DNA from: Nymphaea colorata
Lineage: Eukaryota > Streptophyta > Magnoliopsida > Nymphaeales > Nymphaeaceae
DNA: 64,000 nucleotides
Direction: 5' to 3'
Assembly (NCBI RefSeq): GCF_008831285.2
Contig: NC_045144.1
Location: 10,519,672-10,583,671, forward strand
Shown here: positions 20,185 to 52,316 of the stretch, piece by piece
How positions within the stretch are numbered: position 1 is the stretch's first letter
How the letters are laid out: each line of letters begins with the position of its first letter
The notes under the pieces: model-generated
Told to the model about the DNA's origin: nothing
Database searches by the model: none
What the model saw: only the letters and a program-made list of their open reading frames with translations
Program-made: the position numbers and the translations under genes

Positions 20185-21004
20185 CTACCGAGCCCCTTGC
20201 ATTTCAGCTGCCGTTCTTTTGGACTTATGCTTAGATTTCTTTTCTCTCCTCTTGCTCCTGCAGAATAGACAAGCCAAGAATTTTAGGACTTCTGTCCAGA
20301 TGCATTTTTGAAGGGTAAACACTAAAGGATAAGTGGTTTAAAATCCCATCACAGGCAATAGATTATCTGATTCCTATCCAAATGCTTGATACAGAATACA
20401 CTGACAGTGTATTGAAGGAATTCATGCAGTTATTCACAAACGCAGGTGCAAGTGAGTTGCAGAAAAAAAAAAAGACTAGACAGTGACAAAAGAGAAGGAG
20501 AAAAAGAGAGAGAGAGAGAGTATTCAAGGAACTCATGTAGTTATTTGCAAGTTCAGTAACAAGTTAGATGCAAAACAAAAAAGACATCACATAAGAAACT
20601 GTTACATTAGGTCTGAGTTTGGGCTGTTCAACTAGTCGAGCCAACTCGGTAATGACCCAAACTCGACTCTTTAATAAATGAGTCAAAGTTCGAGCCAAAA
20701 ATTGAATTTGTTTAATTTAATGAGTTGAGCTTGAGCTAGGCATGCTATACTCGCTTAAATTCGATTAAGCTCATGTAGAAAGAATATGTAAAATACTTTC
20801 CTTTTTTACGTCAGCGAAACGTACCCTGATGGTCTTCTTTGAGTATGCCGACCCACACGTTCAGGGTTTAAACCTAAACATTTCACTTTGTAGTAAAAGA
20901 TAAATTTTTTATATATATCTTGCTACTAAGTCACATAGGTACGAATATGGGTTACGGGTATGGCAGTTTTAGAAAATTTTGGTACATGGGTATGGAAAAA
21001 AAGT

Positions 21005-21049
<45 letters not shown>

Positions 21050-24000
21050 AGAGAGAGAGAGAGAGAACACATCATGAAAACAATGTTTAATAGTTTCTTT
21101 CATAGTTCCTACATATAATCTCACAAAACATAAATAGGCCAACAAAAATATGGTTAAAACATAAGAAAAAGATGTGTGGATTGGCTCTGACCTGAAACCG
21201 ATCCAAACATACCATCAACAGACAACCATAGTGGTAGCGGCATCCCGCTGTACCAGTACTGGTACATGAGCATAACCCACATACCTATGTGACTTAGCTC
21301 GCTAAGCTCCAGCCGAACCTTGGCTTGAGCTTAGCCACATCAAGTTTGAGCTCTCTAAACCCTAATCGAGCTCAAGCTAGCCAACTCAGTCTCGAGTTAT
21401 GGCTTATGTTAGAGCGAACTTGGCTCACAAAAGGTGCAAGCGTGGACATTGGTTCAAAGCAAATTCAACAAACATGCTGGGAAATGAATAAATATATAAA
21501 CAAATAAATAAATATAAATATATAGTATGTACATATATAAAAAGAAAGAGAGAAAGGGATGGGGTAACAAACCCTGTTACAAGATCCCACCCGCCTATTT
21601 CACTGGCTGCTCTACCTTCCATTCCCCCAAATGTTGTTTTCCCGTTTCAAAGACTGCAGTGAAAATCCATCCATTGATGATTGACCACCAAGTACATCAC
21701 CATAGTGGCTTGCGAAATGGCAAGAACTAAATGCACCAGAGCTTACATGGGAAGATTCCACTCAGCAGCTACAACATTTTCCTACGTGCACTCCTTTAGG
21801 ACAAGGTTTCTCTCAAGAGACGCGGAAGAATATGACATTTCGGAAATTAGACGGTAAATATTAGAGTGCATGGGGTAAAAACATGTAATAATCTGGTTGG
21901 GCCAAGAAACCGGCATGCAGACCAAAGTAAACTTACATAAGCAGGTGTTAGAGAACCCCACAGTTTTATGCATGGATAACTAACGTTTGGTTTCTGCTAA
22001 CGTTAGTGGAAAGGGTGCATGAATGCCATTTTTGTTTTCCTTCTTCATTGTGATAACCAGGAAAGCCAGCAGCTACCAGCCTACCACATGGAGATGTAAA
22101 ACAGAATAACAAGTCCCTATTGTCCATCGCAGCTGAGTGTCGTACTACGACAACTGTAAAGATGGAGATTGTTTGGATGTAGAATCTTTTGAATGACATG
22201 CACATCCATCTTCAAAAACCAACCAAACTTCGTTGCGGCAACAGAAGACACAACATATAGTCAGTATCCATATATGCCAAGAGTGAAACAAGCATATATT
22301 GGAGTGGATTGTCAATATGTACAGTAAGAATTTCTAAAAAAATCTATTGTCATGTACCCTCAAGAGTTTTTCCTAGCAGATTTGTTTAGTAAATTGTGCA
22401 AATTTCTGATCTGTCTTGACAAACTTTTGGTCATCACATTGTAAGCCAATTAGAGGTGTTAAACATGTATACGTGTTATGTTCCTTCTGTCCAGCACCTT
22501 AAGTGATGGTCTGTGCATGTACGTCTTTTAATTCAAAAGGAAAAAAAAAATGAAAACTTGTACATAACATGAAGAAATTAAACAATTTATGAGATTAAAC
22601 TGATGATATGAATTTGGACTTATTTAACAAGACAAACTTAAGTAAATGTCGAGTCTCATTTGCCATATGTAGTTGACTCCACTTGTCATAGCTAACAATC
22701 GAAATTGGTCAGTGGGAGAAGTACCATAATAATTACCTGATGTAGGTGTCCATGTTTTATAGGATAGAAATCACCCAAATGAACATAATTGTTCAAGTGA
22801 AATATGGCCAAACTACTAACTTTAGAAAGTTTTTACTTACTCTTCCTGCAAACTAGGATTCCAACAGCATTTCAGTTTCCTGTCAATATGCCTCATCTCC
22901 TTTGCAGCAGGGATCTTTACATCTTTCATCTGCATAACAATCATACTAGCATGAATAAACATGTCGATTAATAAATTGAATAATATCATAATGAATTGGC
23001 ATTTTCTGTAGCAGCCCTACTGTGAGATTGAAACTAGCTCGGCTTTTTGTGCTTTGGTATTGTAAACTTTAACACTTTTCCAGATACATGTGTTTGAACA
23101 GCTAATTTTAGTGTTCTCGAGAGCAAAATGAGAATGATTTTCCTTGTGATTGAGATTAATATCTGAATCTAATACCAATGTGTAACCTATACCTAGTTGT
23201 TAAACCTATCTATGCTGCTCCAGCCTCACATAACACTCGAAAAATTTAGTCTCGTATTGAAGATTGTGAGGGATCTTTGAGAGCTTATAAAAGGGGTTAT
23301 TAAATATATGGTTGTCCTAGTTCCTGCCCTTTTTAGAGTTGAAGCCGAAACTGCTAAAAGACGGGTTGGAATCCACCGAACCAGGAGCCTGAGCCTAAAA
23401 GTGGGTCAGGTTGTTACAGTGGTATCAAAGCTGGTTCAACACTCGAACTTAAGGTCCCACACGCGTGGATGTGTGTGCCTTGAGGGGGTTGGATTGTAAT
23501 ACCCCAAAATTTAGTCTCATATTGAAGATCGTGAGGGATCTTCAAGGGCTTATAAAGGGAGTTATTAAATATATGGTTGTCCTGTTTCTTACCCTTTTTG
23601 GGGTTGAAGCCAAAACTACTAAGAGGCGGGTTGGGATCAGTCGAACCAGGGGCCCGAGCCTAAAAGTAGATCGGGTTGTTATACATCATACCAAATTCCA
23701 CTACCGGTGCAGCAACTCGAAATGTTCAAAAGTAATTTCTCAGATTTTAAATATTAAGAATATTAGCACATTCACTGCATCACAAGGAAACACCATTTTG
23801 TTCATGCACTGGGTACATAATGAGGTTGTTTGACAAGAAGGAATACAGAGAATAGGCACACCATTTTGTGCCATTCAACGGTTTATTATAAAACACTAAT
23901 GTCTTCCCACCATAAATTTTTGCCACCCTTACCATGTTTTCTTACCCACTGCTTGCATGCGCCTACAGAGTCATACTGAAAATCCCAAGAATGCCAATCA

Positions 24001-26022
24001 TAAAAGCTTGAACAAACATGAGATGATATTCTAAAACAAAGATTGATGCCTGCAGTTAATGTTTTTCATATGTTTATTATTTTTTCAGGATTTAAATAAT
24101 ATATATGAAAAAATGACTTTTAATATTAGAGGATAAGAAAGTCCACCTTTGGTTAAAACATTAGAGAAGATAATTTCCCTCACATCTTAAAACAAGAAAA
24201 AACAAATTGAATTTGTAAGTTGTAACCCCAGCCCCTTAAAAAATTAAGGACACCAGCCCCTTAAAAAATTAAGGACACATAGCAATGCATTTTAGCATGA
24301 ATCAGTGAGATGTTCATATTGGCTTCTCAGTCGCAGATGAAAGGCCTATTTTTCTACATCCAACTATGGAGTGTTTGTCATCTATCTCTTTTGTCGTGTC
24401 AACATCTACTATAAGTGATTGCTGATACATAAAAAGGATGTGACTTCTTGTCACGGTTTCCTCATCAAACTCATTCTTCACCATGAAAGATTTGGCTGCT
24501 GTTTTGCAATACTAAGAAGAACAAAGAGAAGACACAGGAATGCAACAGATGTCATGCCTATAACAGACAAGACGTGCTTTAGTTCTCATTAAAATATACA
24601 CAAACTTTTGTAAAGAAAATACGAAGGACAAAAAACTCTTACTTAACAAATAAATGCAACTGTTAGTACATAAGGGCATGTTCATCAAGATAACATAAAA
24701 ATCTAGATTTAGACTGAACCAAATGGACCCAAAAAATATCTGCCTTAACAACCTCCCTGAAGTCGAACAAGTTCTTCAACCATAGACAGCTTGCCCTTAG
24801 TTCCCTTTATAAACAAGTCAGGCACTTGATTCTCAAGCTATGTCACACGGATATGTATGAAAGGCCCAATACCTGTGTTAGCATATGGGTATGGTGTATA
24901 GGTACGTGGGTATCGTGGGATAAAGGCATAAATCTGTATTTTAAAACTAAAAAAAAAAGTTATATCTTTAAGCTCAAATTTTGCATTGGTTTTGATTTTT
25001 CCCTTCGATCTAGCTTCTGTTCCCCCATTTTTTTATATAACTTTGATTTTTTGTGAAGTATTATATATATAATGTGTGCGTGTGTGCGTGTGTGTGTGTA
25101 TATATACCATTGTATCAATAATTTTAATTTTTCATAATTGGCAATGCCCGAAACCCCACCACCATATCCATACCACACCCATGTTACATTATTGTCAATG
25201 AACATGCTACTAAGGCCCACACAACTCTATCTTCATCCTTCTATCTGATAAGATGTTGATCTATCTCAATCTGTTACGTGTGGCTATGATGGATAGAATT
25301 AAAAGCACTATTGTAGCACTTTGATTGTCATCCAACAAGAGCAACTTTAAGATAAATTCTCCTAATCCATCGTGAAGATGCCTAACCCATATAGCTTGAG
25401 CAATAGCAGCAACCATAAATCTGTGTTTTGCTTCAGTACTTTGATGTTGCATTTGCAACAATGTTTCCATTCAATTACTAGAGGCTGTCAAGTCATCTCC
25501 AAGAAACACACAACGGCCTGAAACTGATTTTCTATCACGTAGATCTCGTGTCATCAACATTTGCATAACTGATAATCTCATGAAGCTCTCTGTTTGACCA
25601 AATTCTTTGGTAGAGAAGCCCATCTCCGATTTCAAATATCTCAATCCTCTCTTCACCGCACCTAGGTTTGTACATTTAATTATGACATGTGATAATAGAA
25701 TAAAGAAAGTCTATTTTAGTAAAGGTGAAACACTGAAGCATATCATCATACAATTATCTGAATTGAAAGCTCAGTTTTTGAATCATGATTACTTGGATTG
25801 CTCAAAGCTTGGAGTCTTCATCCTTGCATCGTTCAACCCAATGGTGTATTTATGTTGAGTGAGACTTAAGACTTCATCTTTTCTATCAATTTCAATCCCC
25901 ATAAAGTACCTCAAGCGGCAGCCCAAGTCACATGGGTACATGTAGGGGCGTGGATTCAGGTATGGCAAAGCGGGCGGCGGCTTAGAAAATTTGGGTAAGG
26001 GGGGTATGATAGAGTGTACATG

Positions 26023-26062
<40 letters not shown>

Positions 26063-28141
26063 CCACAAGAATTCTCAATTATTGAAGAAAAATGAGAGGA
26101 TAATATAGAACCTTGGTGGAAGGGAAATAAAAAGGAAGGGAAAAATCAAAACTAAAGAAAAAATCAAGTATGAGAAAATAAATTTTTAAGTTTTAAAATA
26201 CAGCCACACCCACGTACCCGTGTCGCCGTACCTGCATATCGACAAAGGTACTTGGACACATCACATGTACCTGTTCACTTATTGAGCCAAGATCCCTTAT
26301 TTTGAGGATTTGACTTAAAAAGTATTTCACTGTCCTAATATGTTAGCATGAAATTACTCCTTGTTTTTGAAATACAGCATAAACTCAAAATTTTAATTCA
26401 AAATTTAGCAGATCTTACACTAAGAGTGTATCCGACGCCATATCACTGGCAACCCTCCCGCTGGTCACCATTGCATTCCCCCTGAGACTGACAGACGACC
26501 CTCTTCTCTCTTTCTTGTCTTCCATTTTTTCTCACCAGCTTCTTGTATACTCTATTTTTTTCTTGCTTGCCAGCAACACATGTAGTTGGTTCAATTTCCT
26601 CTCACCACTGTCACAGGAAATTCCTCTCTCCCTCTCACTCGCACACAAGCACACTGTTGACTGACTGGTACTCTGTTTTCTTCCATGGTGGCAACTCATA
26701 TAGCTCGGTTTCTCTTGTTGTCCCTCCCACTGGCAATGATAGTCATCATTTTTTACTCTTCTAATACTTCTATCAATTCCATTATCTCTCACTTTCTCTT
26801 GGTCTCTAGTTCTCTCAATTATTGTCGATTTAATTGGGACTTTGATATGTTTACTTGGTTTTTCATTAGTTTATGTTTTGTGTTTTGTAAATTATGAGTC
26901 ATAAAACCATTGTTTTGTTTGTTTAAAATCTTATTTTTGCCACATATATAAAATATCCCACACCCAAGTTTTTTAGAATTGCTCCATGACTCATAACATA
27001 GAATGTAAGGGATATCCTGGACATACTGGTCCAGCTCCATAACCACTTTCTCAGAGCAACAAGTCTGTGTACATGATTGTGAAATAACGCAACAAGCTGA
27101 TTAAGGCATGAGAACATTAAGTGCAATTTTGGCACAAATGGCCATGTGACTTAAAAGATGAAATAGAAACCCTCTATAATGTTCATATAATTTGCCTTGT
27201 GTTGTGTCAAGGTGAATTACATTACCAATGACTCAATGGCATTAAGAGTTTCGTCTAGTTCATAGCAACTCTGTTCATGTTGCCGAGAAAAAATGTTGTC
27301 CAAATATCTGCACAACCATAATCCAGTAACAGTCATAGACTTTCACCTGTATGAAGTTACATTAACACAACGAAATGAAAAATGGCAGGATAAGATAATA
27401 ACCTGTCAAAGTCCAGAACTTTAAGCACTTCATTTGATTTACGCAAAGCAGCCAGTGCCAACTAAAAAGAGGGAAAAAAATTAATAATCCTTTCAGCAGC
27501 AAACAAGAAGGAAAAGGCCAAAATGCATATAGCCATTAAGCCATCACATTTCAAGGAAAGCATATTCATGGTAAACCGGAAGGTGACAAATAATAGAAAA
27601 AAACATAAGAAAGAGGGGGTAGGGAGTAGGAGGTGTTCCCTTGATTTCATATGTTTGAGACTAATTGCCTTGCAAAAAATCACTTTTCCAGTAAAAGAGG
27701 GCAAAAATACACAATAAGCATCCTAATTTGGGTCAGATTGGTCATCAGCATCACTCTACCTCTTTGTTTGATTGGTTTAAGATTTGAAGCTCTACAAAAA
27801 ATCAATCATTAGAAATTGTATGCAAATAAGTATATATTTACCCCATCTCTCTCCCTCTCTCTCTCATGTAAGGAGTACGCGGCTTGTGGAGCATCCGATC
27901 TTTTAGATTGGAATCTCCACTTACTTAAAAAAGAAAAAAAAGTTCCCTGATGCCCTACGGACCTGCGGTTTGCAGGGGGAGGCCGTCGCCTCCCCTCCGC
28001 AATGTTGGGACGCCTGGCAAGGCATCGTCACTGGGTATCCCAAAACTGTTGGCAACTCCTCGTTCGCTATGTCACCTAAGTGCGGTTGCGGGTGCAAGTG
28101 AGGGATGCGGCAAATCCCAAAAAAATTTCAATGCGGGTATA

Positions 28142-28199
<58 letters not shown>

Positions 28200-28203
28200 C
28201 GTG

Positions 28204-28238
<35 letters not shown>

Positions 28239-31200
28239 ATATATATATATATAATAATTTTTAAGATCTAATCAATAAATATAATCATAAAATATGTCAA
28301 ATACTCAAAATGAAGCCATGCATCATTTTATCCTTTTCTAATCTACCTAGAAACTACATGTGCAGACAGTGTATGCACAGCTGCCAGATAATTCTTGCAG
28401 CAAGCAATGAGAGATTGATAATTGTAAAACAAAAACTAAAACCAGCATTCGGTAAAATTAAAAAGTAAAACTGTAAAACAAAAAAATTATGTGGAATTGA
28501 CTAATGACTGACATATAACTGAGAACAGCATTCCTCACAGAAAAAGCAAGACTCGGACCGAACGGAAATAATGAAATAGATTAACAAATAACATTATAAC
28601 AACTTACGAAATAAAGAAGCAAAAGAAGATAAAAAAACTTAATGAAAAAGAAATAACAACAATGAAAAAGTGAAAAACTCAGAACAGCATGCACAAATTG
28701 GGACAAATCAGTAGAAATAGGCCAAGTGGCCAACACATCAAAAAAATAAATAAACACGATATTAAGCATGAAAACATTCATAAGAAAAAAAAAATGAAAG
28801 ATTTGTAAAACACAAACCCAGTTACCCAAAGTCGAAATCACTCATTTAGGTTGCCGTCACTGATTAATGCTCACCGCCACGTCTGCCGATCTTCGTTGAA
28901 TGCCTAAGCTCGTATTGAATGAAGGAGGGCTCACCGACAAAAAATCTGCTGCTCGCCGGAGGTAGGACCTAGGAAGTCGAAGACAGAGGAGGGAGGCAGT
29001 GTTGTACGTATGTACCATATCGTTTTAAATCTACAATACGATACACCACCTGCACACAAACAGGTGGTGTATCGTATGTGTATCACATGTCGTACGATAC
29101 AGGGCGATACATCCCGTATCGCACAATACATGTCTATTTTGAAAAATATGGGGTTAAAACCATCCCTTTTCAAACTAATTTTTAAAACTTGCCTCCCTCT
29201 TCATTTCTGAACATATCTAATAGTTGAAGGAGGGGGGTTGTAGCAATTTTCAAAAGGAATAATCAGTTTCACCATGAAAGCGTCAATTTGAGGGCAGATT
29301 TATGCATGGATGATTGATTCTTGTTTAGATAAAGAGAGTTTATATCTTATATGTAAGATGAAAATGAGAATGAGATGATAAAGGTTATGAATGAAGCTAT
29401 TTTCATTTGTTATTTGCATAAACATTGAACAATTTTGTCTTGTGATGTGATGTACAGCGCAATGTTATCCGTATCGTACGATACGAACGCGTATCGTACG
29501 ATACGTATCGTCCGTATCAACGTTTTCGATACGTTACACCTATTAAATACGATACGCGTACGTATCGTACGCGTATCGTACGTATCGTGCGATACGGTGG
29601 GCGTATCGCACGATACGTGCGATACACCCCCGTATCGCACGATACGGGAGTAAAATTTAAAAAGGGGCCGTCGGGCCCCTTTTTGCTTCTTATTCTCAAA
29701 CCGACGCTCCTCTCTCTCTCTCTTCTTGTTTCTCAACACTGCGAGGGACGTGGGAGGGAGAGATTTTCTCCATTGCATCAAGATTTGCCGGTGAAGAAGC
29801 TTCATTTCTCGTTGTGGGGAGTCTTGGGACGGTGGGAAGCTTGGAGAAAGAGGGTTTTTTGGTTTTTAACACCAAGAAGGTAAAAAATAACTCATTTTTG
29901 CCGTTGAATCGTTCATTTCTCTTATTTCCTACATTTATTTGTATGTTTTTACTTGTTTTGTGAAGATATAATGTCGGATCCTGCATGGCAGTGGTGTACA
30001 AGGGTGAATCCCAAAGATAGATTAAGAGTTAAGTGCAATTATTGTAAGCAAATCATATCAGGAGGGATTTCTCGCTTTAAACACCATATAGCTGGTACAC
30101 ACAGCGATGTGGCTGCTTGCAATGGCTCCCAAGAGATCCCATTGCCAGCGTATGTAAAGCACCAGTGTCAGCAGCTTCTTGATGCAGTGAAAGCAAGTAG
30201 GATTGAAAAGGACATGGAAGATGCGGAGGAAGGATATGGGGACCCACATGAAGGAGAAGAAAGTGAAGGTGAATATGTTCAACTTGAACAAGAAGATGTT
30301 GGTGTCAGTTTGGGAACAACTAAAGGGAAAGGCATCATGCATGGAGGTGGTTCTTCTGCAACTGCAACCAGAAAAAGAAGAGGTGCAAGTATAAGTTCAG
30401 TTTCACGAGGACGTGGCAGAAGTCAGGGTCGTACTGGTGGTGGTAGAGTACCTACTATGAGGTCGAGCAATATGTCTGGTTCGATCAAGAATTTTTTTCC
30501 CAATTATACTGCTGCTGGTGCTCAGCCTGAGATTCGTATAGCCATGCAATCAAAGGATATTATTGAAGCAGCAGATGAAACCATAGGAAGGTGGTTCTAT
30601 GATGCATCCATTCCCTTCAATGCAGCAAACTCTTATCATTATCAGCCTATAGCAGATGCGATTGCTATTGTAGGGCGAGGGTATAAAATGCCCTCTTTTC
30701 ATAAATTGCGAGGTAAAATTCTCAACAATATAGTTAGAGATGTGAAGACATATTGTGATGAACTAAAATTGAGTTGGAAAGCTACAGGATGCAGTGTAAT
30801 GGCAGATGGGTGGACAGACATCAAGAACAGAACATTGGTAAACTTCCTTGTATATTGCCCTCTTGGTACTATGTTCTTAAAATCTGTTGATTTGTCTGAT
30901 ACTCCGAAGACTGCTGATGTGTTGTTTGGGATTTTTGATAAAGTTATAGAAGAAGTTGGGCCTGAAAATGTCGTACAATTTATCACTGATAATGCAGCAA
31001 ATTATAAAGCTGCAGGTGAAATGTTTGCAGCACGATATGGGACATTTTATTGGAGTCCATGTGCTGCTCACTGTGTAAATCTTATGCTTCAGGATCTTGG
31101 TGAAAGGGATGATATGAAGTTGACAGTTCACAGATGCCAAGAAATCACGAAGTTTATTTACAATCATGCTTATGTCTTGAATTTGATGAGGAAATTCACA

Positions 31201-37200: not shown

Positions 37201-40200
37201 CTTTCAAGACAGGCCCAGGCCGTAAAAATGGGCTCGGGCCAGCTCAGGCCTGATTTCAATTTTTATTAATATTAAATATATTTTTCTTTATATGTACATA
37301 TAATATAAGTATTTTAATTTTTTTTACTAATTTAGAATTGGGCAAGCCCGCCCTGGTCATGTTGCTCAGGCTTGGGCCCAGGCTGTGCTACTTAGAGGTG
37401 CAGCTGTTTCATCCTCATCACTCCTAGATATGTGTTTTTCGCTTCTTGACTATGATGCTTCTTTTCACATGATTCAAAATGAGCTTATCTTATTAGATTA
37501 TTGCACCAATTCAATAGTTTCTTTTGTCTCAACAGCAAACGGGTCAACTCATGAAGTTTAAATCACAGGAAATTTTGTAAAACATTGTCAAAAATCAAAA
37601 GGTTTTCATATTAAAATATATATATGCACTCCAAGATTAAACGTGAATCTTCTTTTTGTATCTTTGTTATCAGATTGTAGATGTGATCGGGTCACCCAGA
37701 CCCGACCCATTTGATCCACGCGCCCAACACATCATGGGCGGTGGCATACTTGTAAATCTTAATGTCAATTTGTGTATTTTATGATGTACCCTAAATCGTG
37801 ATTAATATATAATGATAACAAGAGGCAAGCGTCATTTGTTGCTGCCCTCTTTCATCTCTCTCTTGCTTGGACGTGCACCCCACTTCTCTCTTCCTCTTGC
37901 ATCTAACTTCATTCTGTGATTTGGTATCAGATATCAAAATCTTACATGGTATCAGAGTGGGGTTTTGCCATCGAGAATGCCCGGTAAGAATCTTTAATTA
38001 TGCCCTAATCTTTGTTTTTTTTTCTGCCCTAATCATCAAATCTCTACTTTCTACCCTAATCCCCAAATTCCAGCCCTAAACCTAATCCCCAAATTTTCTG
38101 CCTTAATCTGCCCTAACCCTACCATCGGTAGGGCTGCACAACGAGTCGAGCTAACTCGGGCTCGATTCGAACTTGCTCAACAAAGCTCGGCTCGAGCTCA
38201 ACTTATTTATAAACGAGTCGAGTTCGAGCCGAAAGTTAAACTCGAATCAATAAACGAGTCGAGTTCAAGTTGGAAGAACTCGACTCGTTATATTAAATCA
38301 ATTGAATTGAATGAACCGGCTCGGGAAACCAGTTCACCGGTTTAGGGTAAAAACTTTCCCATTCACTCACTCATCCTTCTTCCCATCTGTTCTCTCTCTT
38401 CCGCTGGACCGCTGCTGGCTGCTGCTGCCTTCTGGCCCTTCTCACACCGCTTCCGCAGCCCGTTGGACCGTTATTGTTGCCTCTCTCGCCGCTTCCACTG
38501 GACCGCTGCTGCTGCCTTCTCAGTTCTCTCGCCGCAGATGCCTTCTCTCGCTGCTGCTGCCTCAAACGCTGCGACGTATCCGTCGTCCCTCTCGCTCTTG
38601 CTGCAGCTTCTGCTCCCGCCTTCACGCCAGGTACCCCTTCGGCCTTCCTTTCTTCTTCTCCTTGTTCTTCTTCTTCTTGCCCAAATGAAACCCACCAGAA
38701 ATCACTGCTGCTGCCTCAGACGCGATCAGCACTCGCATTCACTGCTCTTGCGGGCAGGACTGTTTGCTACCTCCTCCTTTCCCCTTCCACAAGGTTTATA
38801 GGTTTTTTCTCTCCCTCTCTTTCTCTCTGCTGCTTTGTGGCATAACACCTTTTTCTTCTGTGAGTTTTTTTGAGAAGTTTTTTTAGTCTGATGAGGAAGA
38901 GTGTGTGGATCTCAAGTAAGAAGTTTTTATTGTAGTGTCAATCTTTTGAGATTTTTTTTTGGTGGATTTTTAGATTTTCTTGCGGCTGTCTGTTCTTCCT
39001 TTTGTTGGTGGGTCATGTTTTTTGTCCTCCATAAAAGTATGGAGTTGTTAAGTATATAAGTATACTAATAACGTTCATGATAATATTGTTTTATGAAAAA
39101 AGAGCATAGTGAACTTCAACAAATTGTTCTCAAGAATATAATGTTCTTTTTATCAAATGCTCACTCTTGGCTAACAGCAACTTCTCAGCAGCACTATAAT
39201 TTTGAACGAGTTCAGTCACCTTCACTACCAGTAAAAAATTTAAACTTGTGAGTTGGTGAAACTTCAACAACCCAAGTGCAAGAAAGTATGGATCAATTAC
39301 TGTTGGTTTTTTTGTAGGACACTGCTGAAGGTGACATAGCATGACATGATTCAACATCGTTTCAAACATATTATGCAGTAACAAATAACAAAATAACAGG
39401 TATTGTAGCTTCATCGTTGTTTATAATATTCCATTTGGTTTTTTTGCATTGTTCACACTAATACATTTTATGAAAAGCTTTCATAATGGGTGGCAATGCA
39501 ATTTTTTTCAGTTATGTTCTGTTTAACAATTCAGAATTTTTTTTGTCAGACGTGGAGAGAAATAATTGGGCAACCTAACATACGACATAGATATAGAAGA
39601 ATCCGTAGAAAACTCAACCATAGATATTGTTGCCTTTGAATGGATTGTTTGGGATGAAGAAGGACCTTCGCCGGTGGCAATTCTACCTCCACCACGTCCA
39701 GAGGAGACGTTCGAACGGAGGTGAGGATGCTTGTCCCAACAACGATCCTCTAGATGACAAATTTTGCCACAATAAGAGCACTGAAATCTGCCACGTCCTG
39801 CACCACGGCCTGTACCACGTCCCCTAGTGCCACCAAAAGAACTAGGGCCCCGTCCTCCTGATCTCACAAGTGCAAAGACTGGTGTGTCATGCGTATTCTG
39901 AGAAAGAGTGGCTGCAAGACGACTCTTCCTATTATTAGTGTCTACTAGATCTTGAAGATCACTGCCTGTGAGAATTTGAGACTTTGTCACAAAGTATTCT
40001 AAAGATAGGCCAGATAGAAACTTCACTACCATACCAGTTTCAAAGTGTAATGCATAACAATGCTGGCAAGGTGGACGAAGAGCCTTTAACCGTTCATATG
40101 CAACAGTCAATGTAGCAAAATACTGAGATAGGTCCTGATCCCTTTGCCGTATGTTGCATAACTCCTCTTCCAGAGGTAGGATTTTGACTACATTAGTGGC

Positions 40201-43200
40201 ATGTGAGTATGTCTTCCTCAAGAAAGACCACATATCCTTGGCCTTGGTATAATATGCAATAGTTGAGGCTATATGAGACTCCACACTATTCATAATCCAA
40301 GACATAACAATATAATTATCTTCATCCCACGCAGCATATATCCCTTTTCTCTCAGTAGGTTCATCCTCCTCAAGAATATATTTCTTCCTATGGCCAGCCA
40401 CCGACATTATGAATACCCTAGACCATATTTCATAATTGGAACCATTGAGCTTGATTGTGGTTTCATAAGAAAAGGAATTCCCAGACATCTTGTATTCAGT
40501 AGACCCTTCAGATTTACCATTCTCAGCCATAGTAAATAAAGAAGACAAGATTGGCGCAAAAGTTAAGAGGCTAAGAAATCACTGTCACTTACAGGTTTGA
40601 ACAGAAAACGTAGTGTACTGATCACTAGTATTAGAGAAATATCAATTACGACACAGACGAATCTGGAAAAGAAACTTATAACTCCAATATCAGATCTGAA
40701 ACTTTATAGATTAGGCAACAATATAGAATAATCTGTTTCAGCCGATGACTGAAACTCAATATCAGATCTGAAAGTTTATAAATCAGGCTTCTATATTGAA
40801 TAAACTGTTTCAGCCGATGACTGGAATTTCTTCCCCAATTGACTGAAGACTGCTGCTACTTATAACTACAGCTGTTTCACATAAAACTAGTTGTCCACAC
40901 GACAAAGGAATCAACGATATCAACTTACAGATCTTGTACTAACAATCAGCAGCAGTCCACCCTCACGCAGCCTCACTTTACTGATTTTACATCCACGATC
41001 TATAGAAGATTCTGCTCATATCAAAACTGCGTTCATAAACAGCATATAGACTCCACAAACAGCAGCTTCACAAGTCACGCTGCACCCACAACACTCTGCC
41101 CCACGTGGTCAACATGAAGTTCCAATCACCGTTGAAGTAGCATCCACGAGATCAACTTGAGGATCTGATCACGCCATCCACATAGGCGTGATAAGGTCCT
41201 TCTCCACAAAACACGCCCAAACCCTATTCTCTCACTGTCTCCTTATTGGGTGACAAGAGGGAATAAAGGATGGGCGATGACAAGAAGGAGGACAAAAGAA
41301 CTATAAAGAACTCACTTGGTTGTTCGCCGAAAAGGTGGCCGCCGGAGAAGATGGTCGCCAGAAAAACTCACCCTGCTGTCGACGCCACACCTTGCTTTGA
41401 TACCATGTTACGAGAGAGAGAGAGAGCCGAAAAGAAGGATTCATTAGCGTAACCCTAATCTCTACTAAAAGAGATTAGGGTTGGAGACTTTACAAAAGTA
41501 GTCCACCAACTATAGGAAACTATTTAAAGACCTCCTCCCTAACTTTCTAATATTTCAGAAAAACTCTTTTACATCTTTAACAGTATATAATGATAACAAA
41601 ATGCAGACGTTCTTTGTTGTTGCTCTCTTTCATCTCTCTCTTGCTTGGACATGCAGTCCACTTCTCTCTTCCTCTTGCATCTAACTTCATTCGGTGGTTT
41701 GGTATTAGATATCAAAATCTTACAATTTTGTGTTCTCATCCAATGACTATCAAGTTCAGGATTATCAGTCTGGTGAATTTATTGGGCCAAGGTCATAGGA
41801 AAGGAGATATATACTGCATTCCAAAGCAATATTCTGGAATCATTCTAATGTCTTTTATTTATTAGGGGTGCTTTTGACCCAAGTTATACTTGCATAATAG
41901 GAAGATTTGCTAGCCCAAGAAATGCAGGGTAAAGGGAAGTGAGAACTAAGAAGACCCCATGGCTAAACTAACACCTCTAAAACAAGAGGGGAAAAGGAAA
42001 CAAGAGAAACAGAAAAGAAAATCAACAAATATCATGTTCTACATGCTATACACTAAATATAAACAATATATCTAGAAACAACAGAACCGAAAAGGAAATC
42101 AACTTATGTCATATGCTACATGCAATGTTGTACGTATCGTACGATACGACCCCGTATCGTACGATACGTATCGTCTCGTTTGAAAAAAATGGTACGATAC
42201 ACCCCCCGTATCGTAAAAAGGGGGTGTATCGGCCCTGTATCGCACATATCGTACGATACAGGGCCTGTATCGTATGATACGGGGCGATACACCCCGTATC
42301 GTACGATACGGCCTAAAAACGAAAAAGGGGGCCGAGACCTACTTATTCGGCTTCTTTTTTAAATTTTTCTTCCGTTCTTCATTTCTAATGCTTGGATAGT
42401 GCCGTGAGGGAGGGCGATCGTTCATTTTCACCGTGAAAAACTTGATTTTCATCGTCAAATCGAAGATTAAGTGGTCGATTTGTGCGTGGGTGCTTGATTT
42501 TCGTGGGAAGGAAAGGGGTTTTCTTCATTTCAGACATTTCTTCTTCGTAAGGTATGAAATCTCATGTTCTTACCATGTATTCTTAATTTTTTACCGTATA
42601 ATCGTAGATTGGAAGACTTTGAGTGTTTTTCATTAAGTTTACCATAGGATTTCGTTTTTTTTTTTTGAAGATATGGATCCTACATGGCAATGGTGTGAAA
42701 GGGTGAAGGAGAATAACCGTTTGAAACTCAAATGTGGCTTCTGTGGGAATACACTTTCAGGAGGGATTATTAGAATGAAACACCATTTGGCAGGGACCTC
42801 CAAAGATGCGTCTCCTTGTGTTGGAGGACCAAACAAACATTTGCCTCCATTTGTGCGTCAACAATGTTTAGATATGCTTCATGCTTTACGTCAAAAGAGA
42901 AAATAAAAAGAAATTGAAGATGCAGATGTAGGCTATAATGTGCCTTTGGAAGATGAAGAAGAAGAGGAAGAAGCTTATGAATGTGATGATGAAGACGATA
43001 GCAGTCTAAGAATAGATTTGGAGACCTCAAGAGGTAGAGATCGTAGAGGAAAAGGGATTATGTATGAAGGAGGTCGATCTGGCATAACGGGAAGGAAGAG
43101 GAGAGGCACAACAGATGTTAAGGCCAGGTGTGGTATGCGACCACCTAGTGGTAGAGTTCCTACTGGTAGGTCTAGTGTTGGCTTTATTAAGAGTTTTTTC

Positions 43201-46200
43201 CCTTCATATACCAACCCAGGTGGTCAGCCGCATATTCGTGCTGCTATGACATCTAAAGATATGCTATATCATGCACAAAAGCAGGTAGGGAAATGGTTTT
43301 ATGATGCATGTATTCCATTTAATGCAGCTAATTCTTTTCAATTCCAAGTCATGGCAGATGCAATTGCTTCTATAGGCCCCAGATTCAAAATGCCATCATA
43401 TCATCAGTTGAGGGGCAAAATTCTTCAGGATACAGTCAAAGAAGTGTCTGAGCATTGCAATGAGTTGAAATTATGTTGGAAAGAAACAGGTTGCTCCATT
43501 ATGTCAGATGGTTGGACTGATACAAGGTCAAGAACACTTGTAAATTTTCTTGTTTATTGCCCTAAAGGTACAATGTTCTTGAAATCTCTTGACTTGTCTG
43601 ATGTTCCTAAAACTGCTGAGATTTTATTCAATGTTTTTTATAATGTCGTACAAGAAGTTGGACATGCAAACATTGTACAATTTATTACAGATAATGCTGC
43701 AAATTATAGAGCTGCAGGAGATTTGTTATTTCAAAAGTATAGAACATTTTATTGGAGTCCATGTGCCACTCATTGTGCTAATTTAATGCTTCAAGATCTT
43801 AATGAGATGCATGATATGAAATCAGCCATTGACCAATGTCAAGAGGTAACAAAATTTATCTATAATCATGCATATGTATTGAGTTTGATGAGAAAATTTA
43901 CAAAAGGAGTTGAATTAATACGACCTGCACAAAATAGATTTGCCACAAATGTATTGACTGTGCAGAGTGTGGTGAAACAAAGAACTCCTTTGAGACAGAT
44001 GTTTGCTAGTGAAGAATGGGCTGCATATCCACATGCTCATAAAAGAAATGCTTCTTTAGTTGTGGATATTATATTCAATAACGTATTTTGGGAATCATGT
44101 GTGAAGCTATTGAAGGTTTGTGTTCCATTAGTTAAAGTTCTCAGGTTGGCTGACAGTGAGGACAGACCTTCCATAGGGTACTTATATGAGGCTATGGACA
44201 AAGCAAAAGAGGCAATTCGAGACAACTTAAAGGAAAAGAAAAAGTTATATATGCCCATATGGAAGATTATAGATAAAAGGTGGACTGGACAGCTTCATCA
44301 ACCTCTTCATGCAGCAGCTTATTATCTAAATCCTGCAATTAGATTTTCTCCTACATTTAAGGACAGAGAAGTCATGCATGGTTTGTTAGATTGTATTAAT
44401 GTGTTAGTGGAAGATTCTACAGAACAAGATGCTGTGCACAATGAGTTGGATCTATATGATAGTTGTTTTCGGAACATGGGACTACCTGCCGCCGTTCGAG
44501 CCAGGACAACGATGCGTCCAGGTAAATACATAGAAATTTTTAATTTACTTTGCATTTGTTACATTTGATTCTTTTAAAACTTTCACATTGATTTGTTATA
44601 TTTTTGTTTAGATTTGTGGTGGAATAGGTATGGGTTTGATTGTCCAAACCTAGCACGTTTTGCAGTCAAAGTCCTCAGCCAGACATGCAGTGCTAGTGGA
44701 TGCGAAAGGAACTGGAGTGTGTTCCAACATATCCATAGCAAAAAAAGGAATAGGCTCGAACATAAAAGGTTGAATGACCTTGTCTTTGTTCGATATAATA
44801 TGAGGTTGAAACAAAGGTAATATAGGCATATAGCTTAATTAATGTTTACACTTTACATTTTTTGTACAATATATTTATATGAAATTATATACTAACAAAT
44901 TTTCTCTTATTTAATGTAGAGAATTGGAAAAATCATTAGCAAGGAAGCACACATCTCAGTTCGATCCTATCAGCTTGGAAAATTTTGACGATCTAGAGCC
45001 ATGGATTGAAGAAGAACCAGCTACAATATTTGATGATGAAGATCTTGAATGCTTCAACCTTGAAGCTGAAGCAACAGAAGGCTTTGTTGATGAAGGAGAG
45101 TCTGCTACTGCTGGTGCTGAATATGTTGGTGAAGATCTTCCAATTCTTGACGATGAAGAAGAAGAAGAAGATGAAGATGAAGATGATGAAGATTATGAAT
45201 GATGAATCATGAATGAGAGTCAAGTCAAGAGTGCTTTCATTTTATATGTATCAAAAACTGAAGAGTTATGAATCTATGGTTGTTGAACACTTGATTGAAT
45301 GTTTTATGACTTTATCACTTTATGGCTTATGGCCTTATGCTTTGTTGAATGATATTGTATTATTGTTATGAATTTTGATGTTTATGAATGATGAACGCGT
45401 AAGTTTATAGCAATAATAAGTCTATCATTATCTCAAACATGTTTTCTATGAACAATTTATTATTTTTAATTTTTTCTGATTTTTTTATGAATTTTCCGAA
45501 TTTTTTTAAATTTTTTCTGATTTATTAATAATTTTTTAAAAAAATTTACAATACGGTTACGATACGGTGTATCTTAAAGCCCGACCGATACGGCTTACGA
45601 TACGCGTTTTACAACATTGGCTACATGTCTACATGTTACACACTAAATATAAACAATATATTATGTGCATGCATAGTACATATGCATCACAAACACATAT
45701 ATAACGATATATAGATACACATATATGCTCATGCTTATATATGGCCATACAATACATTCATATAACGTTTTTGCGTGTGCCTATGTATATTGTAGCGAAT
45801 AGATCATAACACTCTTTTAAGGAAATACATCAAGGTGCTTCATCCATAACTTACAAAATATGATTCTTCCCTATAAGAATAAGGAGAAAAGACTATGATT
45901 GTCATCTTATCACATTAGATTATACAGCATGGATACTATGAAATCTGATTTACTTCAGGTCTCAAAACCCAACCTGGATTTCTCTTACCTTATTAGCATA
46001 TTTAAGAATGGCATTTGAACGGATAATTTTCACCTTTTAGCTACATTTCTATGCATGCTTACAGTTCTACTTTAGAATCTATAGTAAAACAAGAAGTAAT
46101 CTCCCAACCATCATCCCAGAAGAAATGACCAGCATAGCATCCAGAGAGTACCATCAATCTAACAGTCAGAAGCAAGTTTATTCTGGAAAGAAATAACTAA

Positions 46201-48095
46201 TATATCTATTCAAAATACAGAAAAGAAACCTTCATCTGATTTGACATTTTATGCCAATATATTTGTTTCATAAAAGAGATGCACACCTGTGCAGGCGGGA
46301 ACAAGAGGGGTGCATCTGTCAGCATAATTTTGTCGACCTCCAGCCTTGCAGGATCCCTTAGATCCTATTAATCAGAGAATAGATATTAGACAAATACTGG
46401 GAAATATAGTTACTAAACTTTTGGGATAAATAACACATGTGCATTTGCTTGCACATCTGCATGTACTTCTGCAGGTGCATACACATGCAAATGCTTGAGC
46501 ATAGACTAGTTTACATTTAGCTTTTCTCATTGAAATGTCTTCGAAGGACTATTAAAAATCTTAGATTGTGCATATCATTGAAATCCAAAAGAAGTTTTTA
46601 AAGAGAAACATTATAAACAGAGAAAAGTAAAAGAAAGCAGCAACGGCGTGGTTGAAAGGGCATATATGTTGTATGAGAAGTGGGACTGCCCATGCTTTTG
46701 AGGACAAACCTGAGTTCAGGTTCAACGTGTTTTCGAGAGCAAGGATAACTGTATCCATCAGCCACAAATAAGAAGGCTTGAAAAACACGGCAATCAATAG
46801 TACCTTAAATTGGCGCTGACCATCCATTGCTCGGCAACACTCCTAAAGACCAATTGAAACAGATTCATTGGTCAATGTTGGTGCATTACATGTCAAAGAG
46901 TAAAGCAGCACAAAAAAAAATAATAACAGGACATCGTCATAAAAAAGTTCTAGAAACATTTGACAACACCTGATTGAGATAACTAATAAAAGATGTTTCA
47001 AGAATGTGAGACATTTTCAGAAATTGTATAACCAATAATTGACATTGTTCTGATGCAAAAACTGATAGATTATGTAACTTAGACTCTTCAATGAGGTTAC
47101 CACACCTATGTCGCATCTACACCTGCAGCTGGTGCCATTGTGGTCGTCCCCATGACAAATGAAGCTGGACATGTGCCCATGCTGGATGCAACCAAATGCA
47201 CCCACACCAAGTCTCTGCACATATGAATGCACAATTGGCCCAAGTTTTCTTAAAGTTATTCCCATCCATTTTTGCACCAAGGAGCCACCATTAGGGGCAT
47301 TTTCAAGTTTTTGTACATTAATCTGTTTCATATTGTTAAGAAGATCTCGGCCAATTCTTCTATGGTGTAGACACTACAACAGCACATAAAAGCAGGATAT
47401 CTGCTCACTACAGCCGAGCAGATCATTTTCAGCCCGACAGGCCAAAGTTCTTGATGTTTTAATTTTAGACATTTGTAAGAAACCAATCTATGTACGAGTT
47501 AAGAATTTTGTTTGCTTGAAGTGAAAACTTTCAAAGAGTCAGGAATGCAAGCTAGTAGAAGCTGCGATAGTGAAACAAATTGGAGGTTGTATCACAAACA
47601 TCTGACTCAGCTAAAAAATGGAAAACCTCTTAAACCAGAATAAACCCAGTTGCAGCCCTAACAAGGATATCTAAACAGAGGAAAGCTGCCTCATAAGCTT
47701 TGGCACCATAAAGAACTGATAATGAGTTATTGAAAGCTTCTTTCTTCCATTTGTACATGACATGTTGACTGGGCTACTAGTTGCATATAAAAGTTATCAG
47801 CAAAAGGTTGTTGCTTACCTCCATGTCCTCGAGAAAGCCATCAATAGAACGATAGGGTGCATATACAATAAGATCAAATCCCAAACTCTGATCAGCATTA
47901 ACGACCAAATGAGAACAGAGGACCACATACATCAGATTCAAAGAAGAAAACCAATAAAATGACTATGACCTTGCCTGCAAAACTATCATTTCATTGTTAA
48001 GAATAACTTGATGATCTTGCTGAATTCCTTTGCCAAGTTCCTCTGCAGATACATGAAATTCTTCAACTTTGCAAGACGCATATACACAAGTCAAC
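20185..48095 (-). CDS. CYCH1-1: cyclin H (CDK-activating kinase/TFIIH subunit), 5' end missing
   Basis: Eight exons, minus strand: 48095-47975, 47887-47819, 46842-46804, 46364-46287, 27461-27403, 27307-27226, 22929-22841 and 20257-20185. Phases agree at every join and give about 202 residues. Hallmarks in order: [12 protein letters not shown] and GKGIQQDH (first cyclin fold), [38 protein letters not shown]...LDFDRYLDNI (second cyclin fold), [11 protein letters not shown], and a basic tail [13 protein letters not shown]. These match plant cyclin H, the partner of CDKD in the CDK-activating kinase and TFIIH, which phosphorylates CDKs and the RNA polymerase II tail in the nucleus. The first visible exon starts mid-codon, so about 130 N-terminal residues are encoded further right; I did not find them before 64000. 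The intron after 47975 has a GC donor; the others are GT-AG. One intron is 18.8 kb and holds four transposons. Confidence 0.9.
20620..20790. repeat. TCGAG-rich dispersed repeat
   Basis: AGTCGAGCC, ACTCGACTC and GAGTTGAGCTTGAGC words, related to the MITE at 10589-11009. In the last cyclin H intron. Confidence 0.5.
20926..21295. mobile_element. MITE with AAGTCACATAGGTA termini and (TA)n core
   Basis: The left end CTAAGTCACATAGGTA is matched by CATACCTATGTGACTTAG at the right, an inverted repeat of about 16 bp. The interior has repeated GGGTA/GGTAC words, a (TA)n tract (21013-21046) and a (GA)n tract (21049-21066), and no ORF. Related termini occur near 24850, 25927, 28064, 52661, 52878 and 59440. 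Confidence 0.65.
21298..21425. repeat. TCGAG/GAGCTC-rich dispersed repeat
   Basis: GAGCTCAAGC, CTCGAGTT and TTGAGCTCT words directly beside the MITE at 20926. Same wording as 10589-11009. Confidence 0.45.
22236..22740 (+). mobile_element. copia 3' end fragment (RNase H tail and LTR start)
   Basis: The plus strand gives HIGVDC-like wording ([10 protein letters not shown]), then [17 protein letters not shown] and CDKLLV-like residues with interrupting stops. This is the C-terminus of copia RNase H. A purine-rich TAGAGG is followed by TGTTAAACATG (22457), the probable LTR start; the LTR end is not clear. It lies in the last cyclin H intron. Confidence 0.6.
23229..23685 (+). mobile_element. TRIM (terminal-repeat retrotransposon in miniature)
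   Basis: Two direct repeats of about 190 bp (23229-23418 and 23495-23685) share AAATTTAGTCTC, GAGGGATCTT, TATTAAATATATGGTTGTCC and end in TTGTTACA/TTGTTATA. Between them are only 76 bases: a primer-binding site TGGTATCAAAGC (23420-23431) right after the first repeat and a purine-rich TGAGGGGGTTGGA before the second. With no coding capacity, this is the layout of a TRIM. It lies in a cyclin H intron. A second copy is at 51840-52247. Confidence 0.8.
24226..24277. repeat. short tandem duplication
   Basis: CCAGCCCCTTAAAAAATTAA followed by GGACA, twice in a row. Confidence 0.8.
24500..25656 (-). mobile_element. copia fragment: RNase H, polypurine tract and 3' LTR
   Basis: On the minus strand 25656-25261 encodes copia RNase H wording ([26 protein letters not shown], then STEAKHRFM and [12 protein letters not shown]), broken by a stop after TASSN. 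The C-terminus ([24 protein letters not shown]) resumes at 24833-24755, directly followed by a CAGGGAGG tract and a 251-bp LTR (24750-24500, TGTTAAGG to AAAACA). A MITE at about 24838-25215 separates the two coding parts. Upstream pol and the other LTR are missing. It is in a cyclin H intron, same strand as the gene. Confidence 0.8.
24838..25215. mobile_element. MITE of the GTCACA-GGTACG family inside copia
   Basis: It interrupts the copia RNase H coding sequence. Left wording CTATGTCACACGG and GGGTATGGTGTATAGGTACG, an AT-rich core with alternating TA and GT/CG runs, and right wording CATATCCATACCACACCCATG. Similar to 20926-21295. Confidence 0.45.
25927..26285. mobile_element. MITE with (TA)n core
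   Basis: Begins CAAGTCACATGGGTACATG. It has a (TA)n tract at about 26029-26060 and ends in the complementary wording CCACGTACCCGTG...TACTTGGACACATCACATG. No ORF. Same family as 20926-21295. Confidence 0.5.
27950..28261. repeat. GC-rich repeat fragment and (TA)n/(TG)n microsatellite
   Basis: 27950-28060 is GC-rich with no relative seen in the window. GCTATGTCACCTAAGTGCGG at 28066 is a MITE-type left end. 28141-28253 is a compound TA/TG/TA/TG/TA microsatellite. The open frames here are low complexity. Confidence 0.6.
28262..28996. other. cyclin H intron sequence; no gene seen
   Basis: AT-rich intron sequence. The last part (28860-28996) becomes GC- and GA-rich and ends with GAGGGAGG, the target duplication of the following hAT element. 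Confidence 0.5.
29460..32901 (+). mobile_element. full-length hAT transposon nested in 28997-33240
   Basis: Termini CAATGTTATCC (29460) and, on the opposite strand, CCAATGTTATCACTG (ending 32901). Flanked by GTACAGCG at 29452-29459 and 32902-32909, an 8-bp target duplication typical of hAT. Left subterminal DNA (29470-29645) is an array of CGTATCGTACGATACG-like palindromes; the right (32808-32890) has the same TACGATACG words. A GGGGCC...GGCCCC hairpin follows the left array (29663-29683). The transposase gene 29971-32488 appears intact, so this copy is a candidate autonomous element. Confidence 0.92.
29971..32488 (+). CDS. hAT transposase, apparently intact (776 aa)
   Basis: Exons 29971-31822, 31924-32128 and 32215-32488, with GT-AG introns of 101 and 86 bp, joining in frame. 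The start ATG gives MSDPAWQW, a BED finger start. BED zinc finger: CNYC and FKHHIAGTH within residues 20-45. Then an acidic and basic linker, the DUF659 domain with the first catalytic Asp in MADGWTD (residue 279) and second in FITDNAANY (about 340), [10 protein letters not shown] (364-373) and the hAT dimerisation domain in exon 2 ([20 protein letters not shown]). The protein would cut and paste its element in the nucleus by binding the subterminal repeats. It ends with an acidic tail. No stop or frameshift was found. It lies in TIRs with a target duplication, so it is transposon, not host, coding sequence. Confidence 0.92.
33520..36493 (+). mobile_element. decayed Ty1/copia element with 3' LTR
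   Basis: Domains in order on the plus strand, in shifting frames: integrase ([11 protein letters not shown] near 33645, [12 protein letters not shown] near 33835, [14 protein letters not shown] near 33920), integrase C-terminus ([10 protein letters not shown] near 34140), reverse transcriptase ([16 protein letters not shown] near 34800, [12 protein letters not shown] near 35255) and RNase H ([17 protein letters not shown] near 35760, STEAEYQLV near 35880). The polypurine tract GAGGGAGGG (36225-36233) precedes an LTR starting TGTTAAAACG (36234) of about 260 bp; its end is approximate. There are many stops and frameshifts. Gag and the 5' LTR are absent. Inside the large cyclin H intron, opposite strand. 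Confidence 0.88.
36494..37675. other. cyclin H intron; GGGCC-type block, no gene
   Basis: AT-rich intron sequence with T- and A-runs. 37171-37400 has ACTGGGCAC, GGGCCAGCTCAGGCC and GCTTGGGCCCAGGC words flanking an AT core, resembling a small hAT-type MITE with GGGCC ends. No coding sequence is seen. Confidence 0.4.
37676..37969 (+). mobile_element. copia-type LTR with primer-binding site
   Basis: The stretch from TGTAGATGTGATCGGG (37676) runs to a TTGGTATCAGA (about 37921) and a second TGGTATCAGAG (about 37949), the copia primer-binding wording. Its last 130 bases (ATATAATGATAACAA to ATCAAAATCTTACA) recur at 41585-41725. No gag follows in frame, so it is an LTR and leader remnant. Confidence 0.6.
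38129..38335. repeat. TCGAG-rich MITE fragment
   Basis: TAGGGCTGCACAACGAGTCG start (compare TAGGAATGCACAA at 10589), then repeated AACGAGTCGAGTTCGAG and GCTCGGCTCGAG words. The right end is not clear. Confidence 0.5.
38336..39522. other. CTG/CT-rich block and intron sequence
   Basis: 38390-38860 is rich in GCTGCTGC, TTCTTC and CTCTCT. It yields overlapping Ser/Leu-rich (plus) and Arg/Ala-rich (minus) open frames that look like composition effects, not genes. The remainder is AT-rich cyclin H intron with no motif recognised. Confidence 0.45.
39523..40548 (-). CDS. copia Gag polyprotein (nucleocapsid), 341 aa
   Basis: Open frame starting [11 protein letters not shown]; the second Met (MAENG) is probably the real start. 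It has the Gag_pre and UBN2-like retrotransposon gag signature ([12 protein letters not shown] near residue 32, then [12 protein letters not shown]), a basic Gly/Arg-rich stretch and one CCHC zinc knuckle, [14 protein letters not shown], near residue 250. The frame is open for its whole length, but protease and downstream pol are absent, and the last 25 residues probably read into other sequence. It would package element RNA; no host role is suggested. Confidence 0.85.
   Translation of the reverse strand: MSSLFTMAENGKSEGSTEYKMSGNSFSYETTIKLNGSNYEIWSRVFIMSVAGHRKKYILEEDEPTERKGIYAAWDEDNYIVMSWIMNSVESHIASTIAYYTKAKDMWSFLRKTYSHATNVVKILPLEEELCNIRQRDQDLSQYFATLTVAYERLKALRPPCQHCYALHFETGMVVKFLSGLSLEYFVTKSQILTGSDLQDLVDTNNRKSRLAATLSQNTHDTPVFALVRSGGRGPSSFGGTRGRGTGRGAGRGRFQCSYCGKICHLEDRCWDKHPHLRSNVSSGRGGGRIATGEGPSSSQTIHSKATISMVEFSTDSSISMSYVRLPNYFSPRLTKKILNC
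39523..41582 (-). mobile_element. copia element, 5' part only (LTR, PBS, gag)
   Basis: On the minus strand: a 176-bp LTR (41582-41407, TGTTAAAGATG to CTCGTAACA), primer-binding site TGGTATCAAAGC immediately after it, a leader with a roughly 90-bp repeated segment (40672-40830), then gag (40548-39523). Pol and the 3' LTR are missing. The element follows the same 5' sequence as 51250-49990 (same family). It is inserted next to an LTR fragment (41583-41735) of another copia. Same strand as cyclin H, in its 18.8-kb intron. Confidence 0.85.
41583..41735 (+). repeat. partial copia LTR, second copy of 37676-37969
   Basis: AGTATATAATGATAACAAAA, then CTCTTTCATCTCTCTCTTGC and CTTCCTCTTGCATCTAACTT, nearly identical to 37810-37945. 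It starts exactly where the minus-strand copia LTR ends (41582), so that element seems inserted into it. It ends in TTGGTATTAGATATC, a decayed primer-binding region. Confidence 0.7.
42123..45619 (+). mobile_element. full-length hAT transposon, near-intact
   Basis: Termini CAATGTTGTACG (42123) and, on the opposite strand, CAATGTTGTAAAAC (ending 45619). Flanked by a perfect 8-bp duplication GCTACATG (42115-42122 and 45620-45627). The left subterminal DNA (42135-42310) is an array of CGTATCGTACGATACG palindromes, the right (45550-45605) carries ATACGGTTACGATACG and CTTACGATACGCG. Same family as 29460-32901, with transposases about 70 percent alike by eye. Lies in the cyclin H intron, opposite strand. 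Confidence 0.92.
42673..45202 (+). pseudogene. hAT transposase with one premature stop
   Basis: Exons 42673-44521, 44612-44816 and 44920-45202 join in frame, with the same intron positions as the 29971 copy. BED finger: CGFC and MKHHLAGT. Catalytic core: MSDGWTD and FITDNAANY, then [10 protein letters not shown], and the dimerisation domain in exon 2 ([20 protein letters not shown]). The tail is acidic. The only lesion seen is a TAA at 42904-42906 (codon 78), after which the same frame continues for 700 codons. Without suppression it yields only the BED finger; a start at a downstream Met could make a finger-less protein. Recent inactivation or a sequence error are both possible. Confidence 0.9.
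45628..46286. other. cyclin H intron sequence
   Basis: AT-rich with ATATATAC/CATATATG words. It ends at the 5' splice site after the exon at 46287-46364. No insertion is recognised. Confidence 0.5.
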
Positions 48096-48773
48096 CTGCA
48101 AACACCCAAAAAAAAAAAAGAAAGAAAAACATGCAACAAAGATAACCAAAGTAGGCCAGAGAACTTTACTGCCAATAAAGATATTTCAAAGACCATACAT
48201 GTTCATAAAAATTCAACAGAAGTTAAGTTGCCATTTTTTTTTTCTTACTTTTGTGAAGCAAAATAAGAAACAAACAAAATTGGGAGTTAAGCCAGAGAAT
48301 CTAGATCACATAGAGGCACACCAAATATGCTTTCAGACGAACAAGAAATTAAATTACACAAAAATATGCATAAGTTTTTATCATGACAAGTCCAGCCCTG
48401 GTTAGGTAAAAAACAAAGAAAGACTTCCAGAAGCAGCAGAGAGAGAAGGAAAATTCATTAGAATATGGTTGACCAAGGAGGTACAAAACTAAGAAGGATA
48501 ACAAGCATATGAAAAAGAATCTCACATTCAGTTGATACTACAGACAACATGAGAATACTCTATTAGTATCCAGCAATAATAGAACAATATAGTTGATCCT
48601 TTCTTTCATCCTTTTCCAATTCTTCTTTTTTTCCGCAGGAAGATACTTTCTAGTGTGTTTGTGGCTTTGTGCTGCCTGGCAGAAATGAGATTTGGGCAGA
48701 AAAACAGAACATGGAAAAAGTGATAGATGTAAAGAGGAGACTTTCAAGTGCTGATTATAATTACCAATGTTTT
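48096..48773. other. cyclin H intron upstream of first visible exon
   Basis: An acceptor with a pyrimidine tract (TTTTTTTTTGGGTGTTTGCAG on the minus strand, at 48096 upward) precedes the exon ending LQ at 47975. No further cyclin H exon was found here. Confidence 0.5.
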
Positions 48774-52247: not shown

Positions 52248-52258
52248 ATTATAGTCAC

Positions 52259-52261
<3 letters not shown>

Positions 52262-52303
<42 letters not shown>
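52262..52303. repeat. (TA)n microsatellite
   Basis: About 20 TA units directly after the TRIM. Confidence 0.9.

Positions 52304-52316
<13 letters not shown>

Follow-up and report, generated by a model that had tools for sequence, protein, structure and literature searches.

Introduction

Long introns filled with LTR elements have been described in housekeeping genes of Chloranthus and magnoliids (PMC8626473). Of the 2,184 orthologs compared in that study, 876 exceed 20 kb in C. spicatus, whereas rice has 2 such genes and Arabidopsis 0; a TFIID subunit serves as the example of a long gene. For rice, a second study gives 4,227 of 37,866 gene models with intronic transposon-linked heterochromatin, many of them transcribed, and describes genes with heterochromatic introns as dependent on OsIBM2 for transcription (PMC7145194).

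Here we describe a very probably functional cyclin H gene of 13 exons, part of which lies in a stretch of 64,000 nucleotides that was analyzed as a whole (C7:10,519,672-10,583,671; hereafter the window). Positions above 64000 are continued window coordinates and refer to the next 80 kb, taken as eight stretches. Cyclin H is the cyclin of the CDK-activating kinase and is basic to transcription and cell division. The gene resembles the long genes of C. spicatus and the magnoliids (PMC8626473) in exceeding 20 kb and in its LTR-swollen introns, although it is another gene in another plant. It shares transposon-bearing introns with the rice genes of PMC7145194. Because such genes have been described in Chloranthus and magnoliids, the gene is an ordinary housekeeping gene of an already described class of long genes with LTR-filled introns, and its importance is modest. 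An earlier reading of the window from its letters (the sequence-only reading) had placed more weight on a cyclin H gene hidden among transposons than this earlier knowledge in plants allows. Still, together with a dead duplicate about 0.5 Mb away and young nested Copia elements, the locus makes a tidy case of a basic gene that has been growing with its frame intact.

Gene Structure

A sequence taken to be that of Arabidopsis CYCH;1 served to locate matches in the window, around each of which the minus strand was then inspected. The exons are as follows.

77012-76953 (continued coordinates), minus strand, exon 1
75540-75490 (continued coordinates), minus strand, exon 2
71416-71338 (continued coordinates), minus strand, exon 3
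71059-70947 (continued coordinates), minus strand, exon 4
70867-70794 (continued coordinates), minus strand, exon 5
47975..48095, minus strand, exon 6, 121 bp
47819..47887, minus strand, exon 7, 69 bp
46804..46842, minus strand, exon 8, 39 bp, the weakest by similarity, placed by splice sites and frame
46287..46364, minus strand, exon 9, 78 bp
27403..27461, minus strand, exon 10, 59 bp
27226..27307, minus strand, exon 11, 82 bp
22841..22929, minus strand, exon 12, 89 bp
20185..20257, minus strand, exon 13, 73 bp, with the stop codon TAG

The complete gene comprises 13 exons with 987 nt, or 328 codons and a stop, and runs from ATG to TAG without internal stop or frameshift. It spans 56,828 bp (C7:10,539,856-10,596,683), of which 1.74% is coding; the length of more than 20 kb is thus due to the introns, and the coding part is of normal size. 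Within the window, the eight exons between 48095 and 20185 join into a frame of 202 residues that is kept at 7 of 7 junctions. The introns 1 to 12 measure 1412, 4073, 278, 79, 22698, 87, 976, 439, 18825, 95, 4296 and 2583 bp. Eleven are of the GT-AG type and one, intron 6, is GC-AG. Those of particular interest are listed here.

48096..64000, minus strand, window part of intron 5 (22,698 bp as a whole, reaching 70793 in continued coordinates)
47888..47974, minus strand, intron 6, 87 bp, GC-AG
27462..46286, minus strand, intron 9, 18,825 bp, in which DUF659 (hAT-type) and Copia sequences are found
22930..27225, minus strand, intron 11, 4,296 bp
20258..22840, minus strand, intron 12, 2,583 bp

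As exons 1-5 were found at 77012-70794, all of 48096-64000 lies inside intron 5. Queried with the Arabidopsis protein under an E limit of 2, tblastn reported no 5′ exon in 48096-64000.

The sequence-only reading had proposed eight minus-strand exons of 39-121 bp that join in frame into 202 residues, and these hold to the base. The lengths it gave for the seven introns between them (87, 976, 439, 18825, 95, 4296 and 2583 bp) are all equal to ours. It had also expected the 5′ exons further to the right and everything up to 64000 to be intron. Indeed, five exons were found beyond the window end, on the same chromosome and strand, and the window ends within the 22,698-bp intron. That reading located eight exons within 28 kb exactly and rightly predicted where the remaining ones lie. 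The case shows that coding signals, even if weak and far apart, can be correctly recognized in raw sequence.

Intron 6 begins with GC instead of GT. An alternative in-frame GT-AG solution exists that differs by one Ala codon, the positions concerned being 47970-47974 and 47886-47887. This solution is less likely, since the extra Ala would fall in a stretch that aligns ungapped to solved cyclin H. It is possible that the two solutions reflect alternative splicing.

The exons were compared with chance in a 68-kb region that includes the gene (16001-84000, continued coordinates), using 40 first-order Markov sequences and the reversed sequence as controls. Seven tblastn pieces scored above the best control (30.4 bits), with 86.7 bits for the top piece; the best score in the reversed sequence was 27.3. 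Four of the seven lie within the window and cover exons 6, 7, 9, 10 and 12. Taken singly, exons 8, 11 and 13 stay below the best control; exon 11 scores 23.5 and exon 13 scores 27.7 bits, and exon 8 is not among the tblastn matches listed. The placing of these three exons relies on their splice sites and reading frame, on their order, and on how well they fit the protein alignment.

Protein Identity

The full 328-residue protein is identical to the Arabidopsis CYCH;1 sequence in 193 of 324 aligned columns (60%), and the 202-residue part encoded in the window in 118 of 198. The identity extends over nearly the full length, and the two proteins share a similar MADF start and a tail containing KSKHK. 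The Arabidopsis gene is presumably compact, in contrast to the 56.8 kb found here.

Two Pfam domains were found above their curated cut-offs, Cyclin_N at residues 79-172 (1.5e-10) and Cyclin_C_2 at 177-275 (1.7e-14); the related TFIIB-repeat family also matches the full protein (3.4e-07). We then compared the protein with solved structures, by sequence search of these structures only. The best match was cyclin H 1kxu (E 3.3e-36), followed by cyclin CCL1 (1.2e-29), and at lower significance by a cyclin-domain protein, 6z3u (5.3e-17), cyclin C (1.2e-11) and cyclin L2 (1.5e-4). By this search cyclin H and CCL1 are closer than the other cyclins, in agreement with the cyclin H identity given in the sequence-only reading. 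The matches to solved cyclin H and CCL1 (1kxu, 1jkw, 7kue and 6xi8), the best by sequence, range from E 3.3e-36 to 2.5e-29. We take 1kxu and 1jkw to be human cyclin H, and 7kue and 6xi8 to be the yeast cyclin CCL1. The 202-residue window part by itself matches Pfam Cyclin_C_2 and solved cyclin H (E 4.5e-19).

In cyclin H, the cyclin fold is flanked by additional helices on either side. The end regions, where such helices may form, are present in the predicted protein, of which residues 4-258 align to CCL1 in the sequence alignment. Compared with 1kxu, the protein shows a 7-residue gap in the first-box region, and the alignment with it stops short of the tail, at residue 305 of 328.

A Cyclin_N family search of the assembly scored 80 candidates and gave 49 matches, among which cyclin H itself was not reported. 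Cyclin_N matches were paired by eye if they lay less than 10 kb apart on one strand and covered mainly different parts of the profile. Twelve such pairs span 314 to 6,312 bp, a rough yardstick that omits single matches and pairs more than 10 kb apart and is biased to compact genes. A neighboring pair at C9, 7.20 Mb, was left out, as both matches largely overlap on the profile. The Cyclin_N domain of cyclin H is encoded by exons 4-7, from 71059 to 47819, and stretches over 23.2 kb.

Copies in the Genome

The assembly (407.8 Mb, 783 contigs) was searched with the last 202 residues, so that the copy count draws on this C-terminal part of the protein and on the Cyclin_N search described above, in which cyclin H was not reported. 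Twelve matches were obtained, eight of them at the window gene, two at a second locus and two weak ones elsewhere, on C13 and C2 (E 0.28 and 0.70). The search with the last 202 residues did not find another intact cyclin H, be it processed or compact; an intact compact gene elsewhere is what the sequence-only reading had named as speaking against its proposal. The second locus is the following.

C7:10,030,441-10,053,057, opposite strand, copy 2, about 0.49 Mb from the window gene

Copy 2 holds exons 1-5, 12 and 13 in the same order as the window gene. When the 13 exons were searched one by one as DNA against 90 kb at this place, exons 6-11 were not found. Of the exons present, exon 1 has a one-base insertion, exon 2 has lost one base and carries an extra base at its donor, exon 3 has lost three bases in frame, and the donor after exon 12 is GC instead of GT. 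Other insertions have widened the interval from exon 12 to exon 13 to about 12.9 kb. One match here joins residues 131-180 without an intron, as a retrocopy would, and this reading was rejected since the DNA before exon 12 shows no exon 11; the remainder of the match is exon 12 of copy 2.

The introns and flanks of copy 2 are also similar to those of the window gene. The best chain runs over 14,304 aligned columns, with a mean identity of 89%, although some of its blocks are probably just copies of the same mobile elements. Because the similarity includes introns and flanks, copy 2 is a segmental inverted duplicate whose middle has been lost. For the rate comparison we used 14 blocks. The mobile-element blocks 48941-49930, 64437-68923 and 69036-69496 were removed, as was a weak 5′ flank block at 77148-77307 (80% identity), and blocks skipped by the chain were added. 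The two loci differ at 15 of 535 aligned sites in the shared exons (2.8%) and at 602 of 10,629 other kept sites (5.7%). The lower divergence of the exons is the pattern expected if they are under selection.

Mobile Elements

Transposon proteins and LTRs were found inside the introns, as DUF659 and Copia frames and as two pairs of LTRs with target repeats. DUF659 is associated with hAT-type elements.

29908..31860, plus strand, 650-codon stop-to-stop frame with BED zinc finger and DUF659, intron 9
42907..44568, plus strand, 553-codon stop-to-stop frame with DUF659, a relative of the frame at 29908..31860, intron 9
33686..35600, plus strand, Copia polyprotein remnants, intron 9
39523..40578, minus strand, Copia gag frame, intron 9
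59653-69909 (continued coordinates; 59653..64000 in the window), plus strand, outer Copia element, target repeat ATGCC on both sides
64333-69496 (continued coordinates), opposite orientation, inner Copia element inside the outer one, GATCC on both sides

Intron 5 further contains Copia remnants at 49.4-50.2 kb and, at 57.4-57.6 kb, fragments that are relatives of the DUF659 frames. The nested Copia pair occupies 10.3 kb of this 22.7-kb intron. The LTRs of the outer element differ at 1 of 278 aligned sites, with 5 gap positions in addition, and those of the inner element are identical over 274. Local BLAST, with slightly different extents and with gaps and ends counted, gave 97.9% and 99.3% for the outer and inner pair, respectively. 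Set against the 5.7% between the duplicates outside the exons, the near-identical LTRs make the nested insertions look much younger than the duplication, and the gene has therefore grown recently.

Two further segments, 40287-41567 in intron 9 and 49935-51247 in intron 5, are 82% alike, including the start of the Copia gag frame. An insertion at 19023-19691 is absent from copy 2 and has GTTA on both flanks. As its ends match parts of the hAT-type element at 29.6-32.9 kb in inverted order, it seems to be a derivative with an internal deletion.

Interpretation of the Locus

The best explanation, to which we assign a probability of roughly 0.92, is a functional flowering-plant cyclin H gene whose 13 exons are spread over 56.8 kb and which is transcribed to the left, from about 77.0 to 20.2 kb (continued coordinates). 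The intact frame, the splice signals, the two cyclin domains and the best match to cyclin H argue for it, as does the lack of a second intact copy among the matches to the last 202 residues. In such a gene, RNA polymerase II would transcribe introns 5 (22.7 kb) and 9 (18.8 kb) in full, transposons included, and the spliceosome would remove all 12 introns, the 11 GT-AG ones and the GC-AG one. The protein would join a CDKD (CDK7-type) kinase and MAT1 to form the CDK-activating kinase of TFIIH. The intronic elements may be silenced by DNA methylation, with IBM2-type factors letting transcription pass, as reported in rice.

The locus could also be a dying or silent copy with its exons still intact, in which the long introns keep full-length transcripts from being made while cyclin H comes from a different gene. 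The very long introns with their young Copia insertions and the fact that a duplicate of the same gene is already dead would fit this. However, cyclin H is essential and a second intact copy was not found with the last 202 residues, the 328 codons are without stop or frameshift, and the exons diverge less from copy 2 than the surrounding sites do, which makes a dying gene very unlikely. Even harder to credit is that the exon groups are separate partial copies joined by chance or by an assembly error. The groups are 22.7 and 18.8 kb apart and the gaps hold many pieces of mobile elements, but the 13 exons follow each other in order, on one strand and in one frame along the whole Arabidopsis protein to residue 324, and in copy 2 the order of exons 1-5, 12 and 13 is the same and the intron sequence next to them is similar.

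A single gene whose main product is truncated by polyadenylation in intron 5 or 9, with the full protein as a minor product, appears improbable as well. The reported need of rice genes with heterochromatic introns for OsIBM2 (PMC7145194) speaks for such truncation, with no direct sign of it at the locus, but long disuse would not have preserved exons 6-13 intact and in frame. Another idea, just as doubtful, is that the only intact cyclin H found is hostage to transposon silencing, its full-length output needing readthrough of two heterochromatic introns. If this were true, a loss of silencing would lower CDK-activating kinase and general transcription, and genome-wide transposon control would be tied to the cell cycle via one gene.

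Other Features of the Window

Scans of the window for Rfam families (gathering threshold) and for tRNAs gave 0 matches. At 53820-54196 there is a purine-rich tandem array with units of 25-31 bases and longer that is open in several frames and in both directions; these frames are likely a low-complexity artefact and not genes. A long open frame on the plus strand at 14359-15915 contains a CxxC motif and a 50S ribosome-binding GTPase domain (MMR_HSR1). It is perhaps the first exon of a gene for a BPG2-like plastid GTPase. It lies on the strand facing cyclin H, so that the two are arranged tail to tail.
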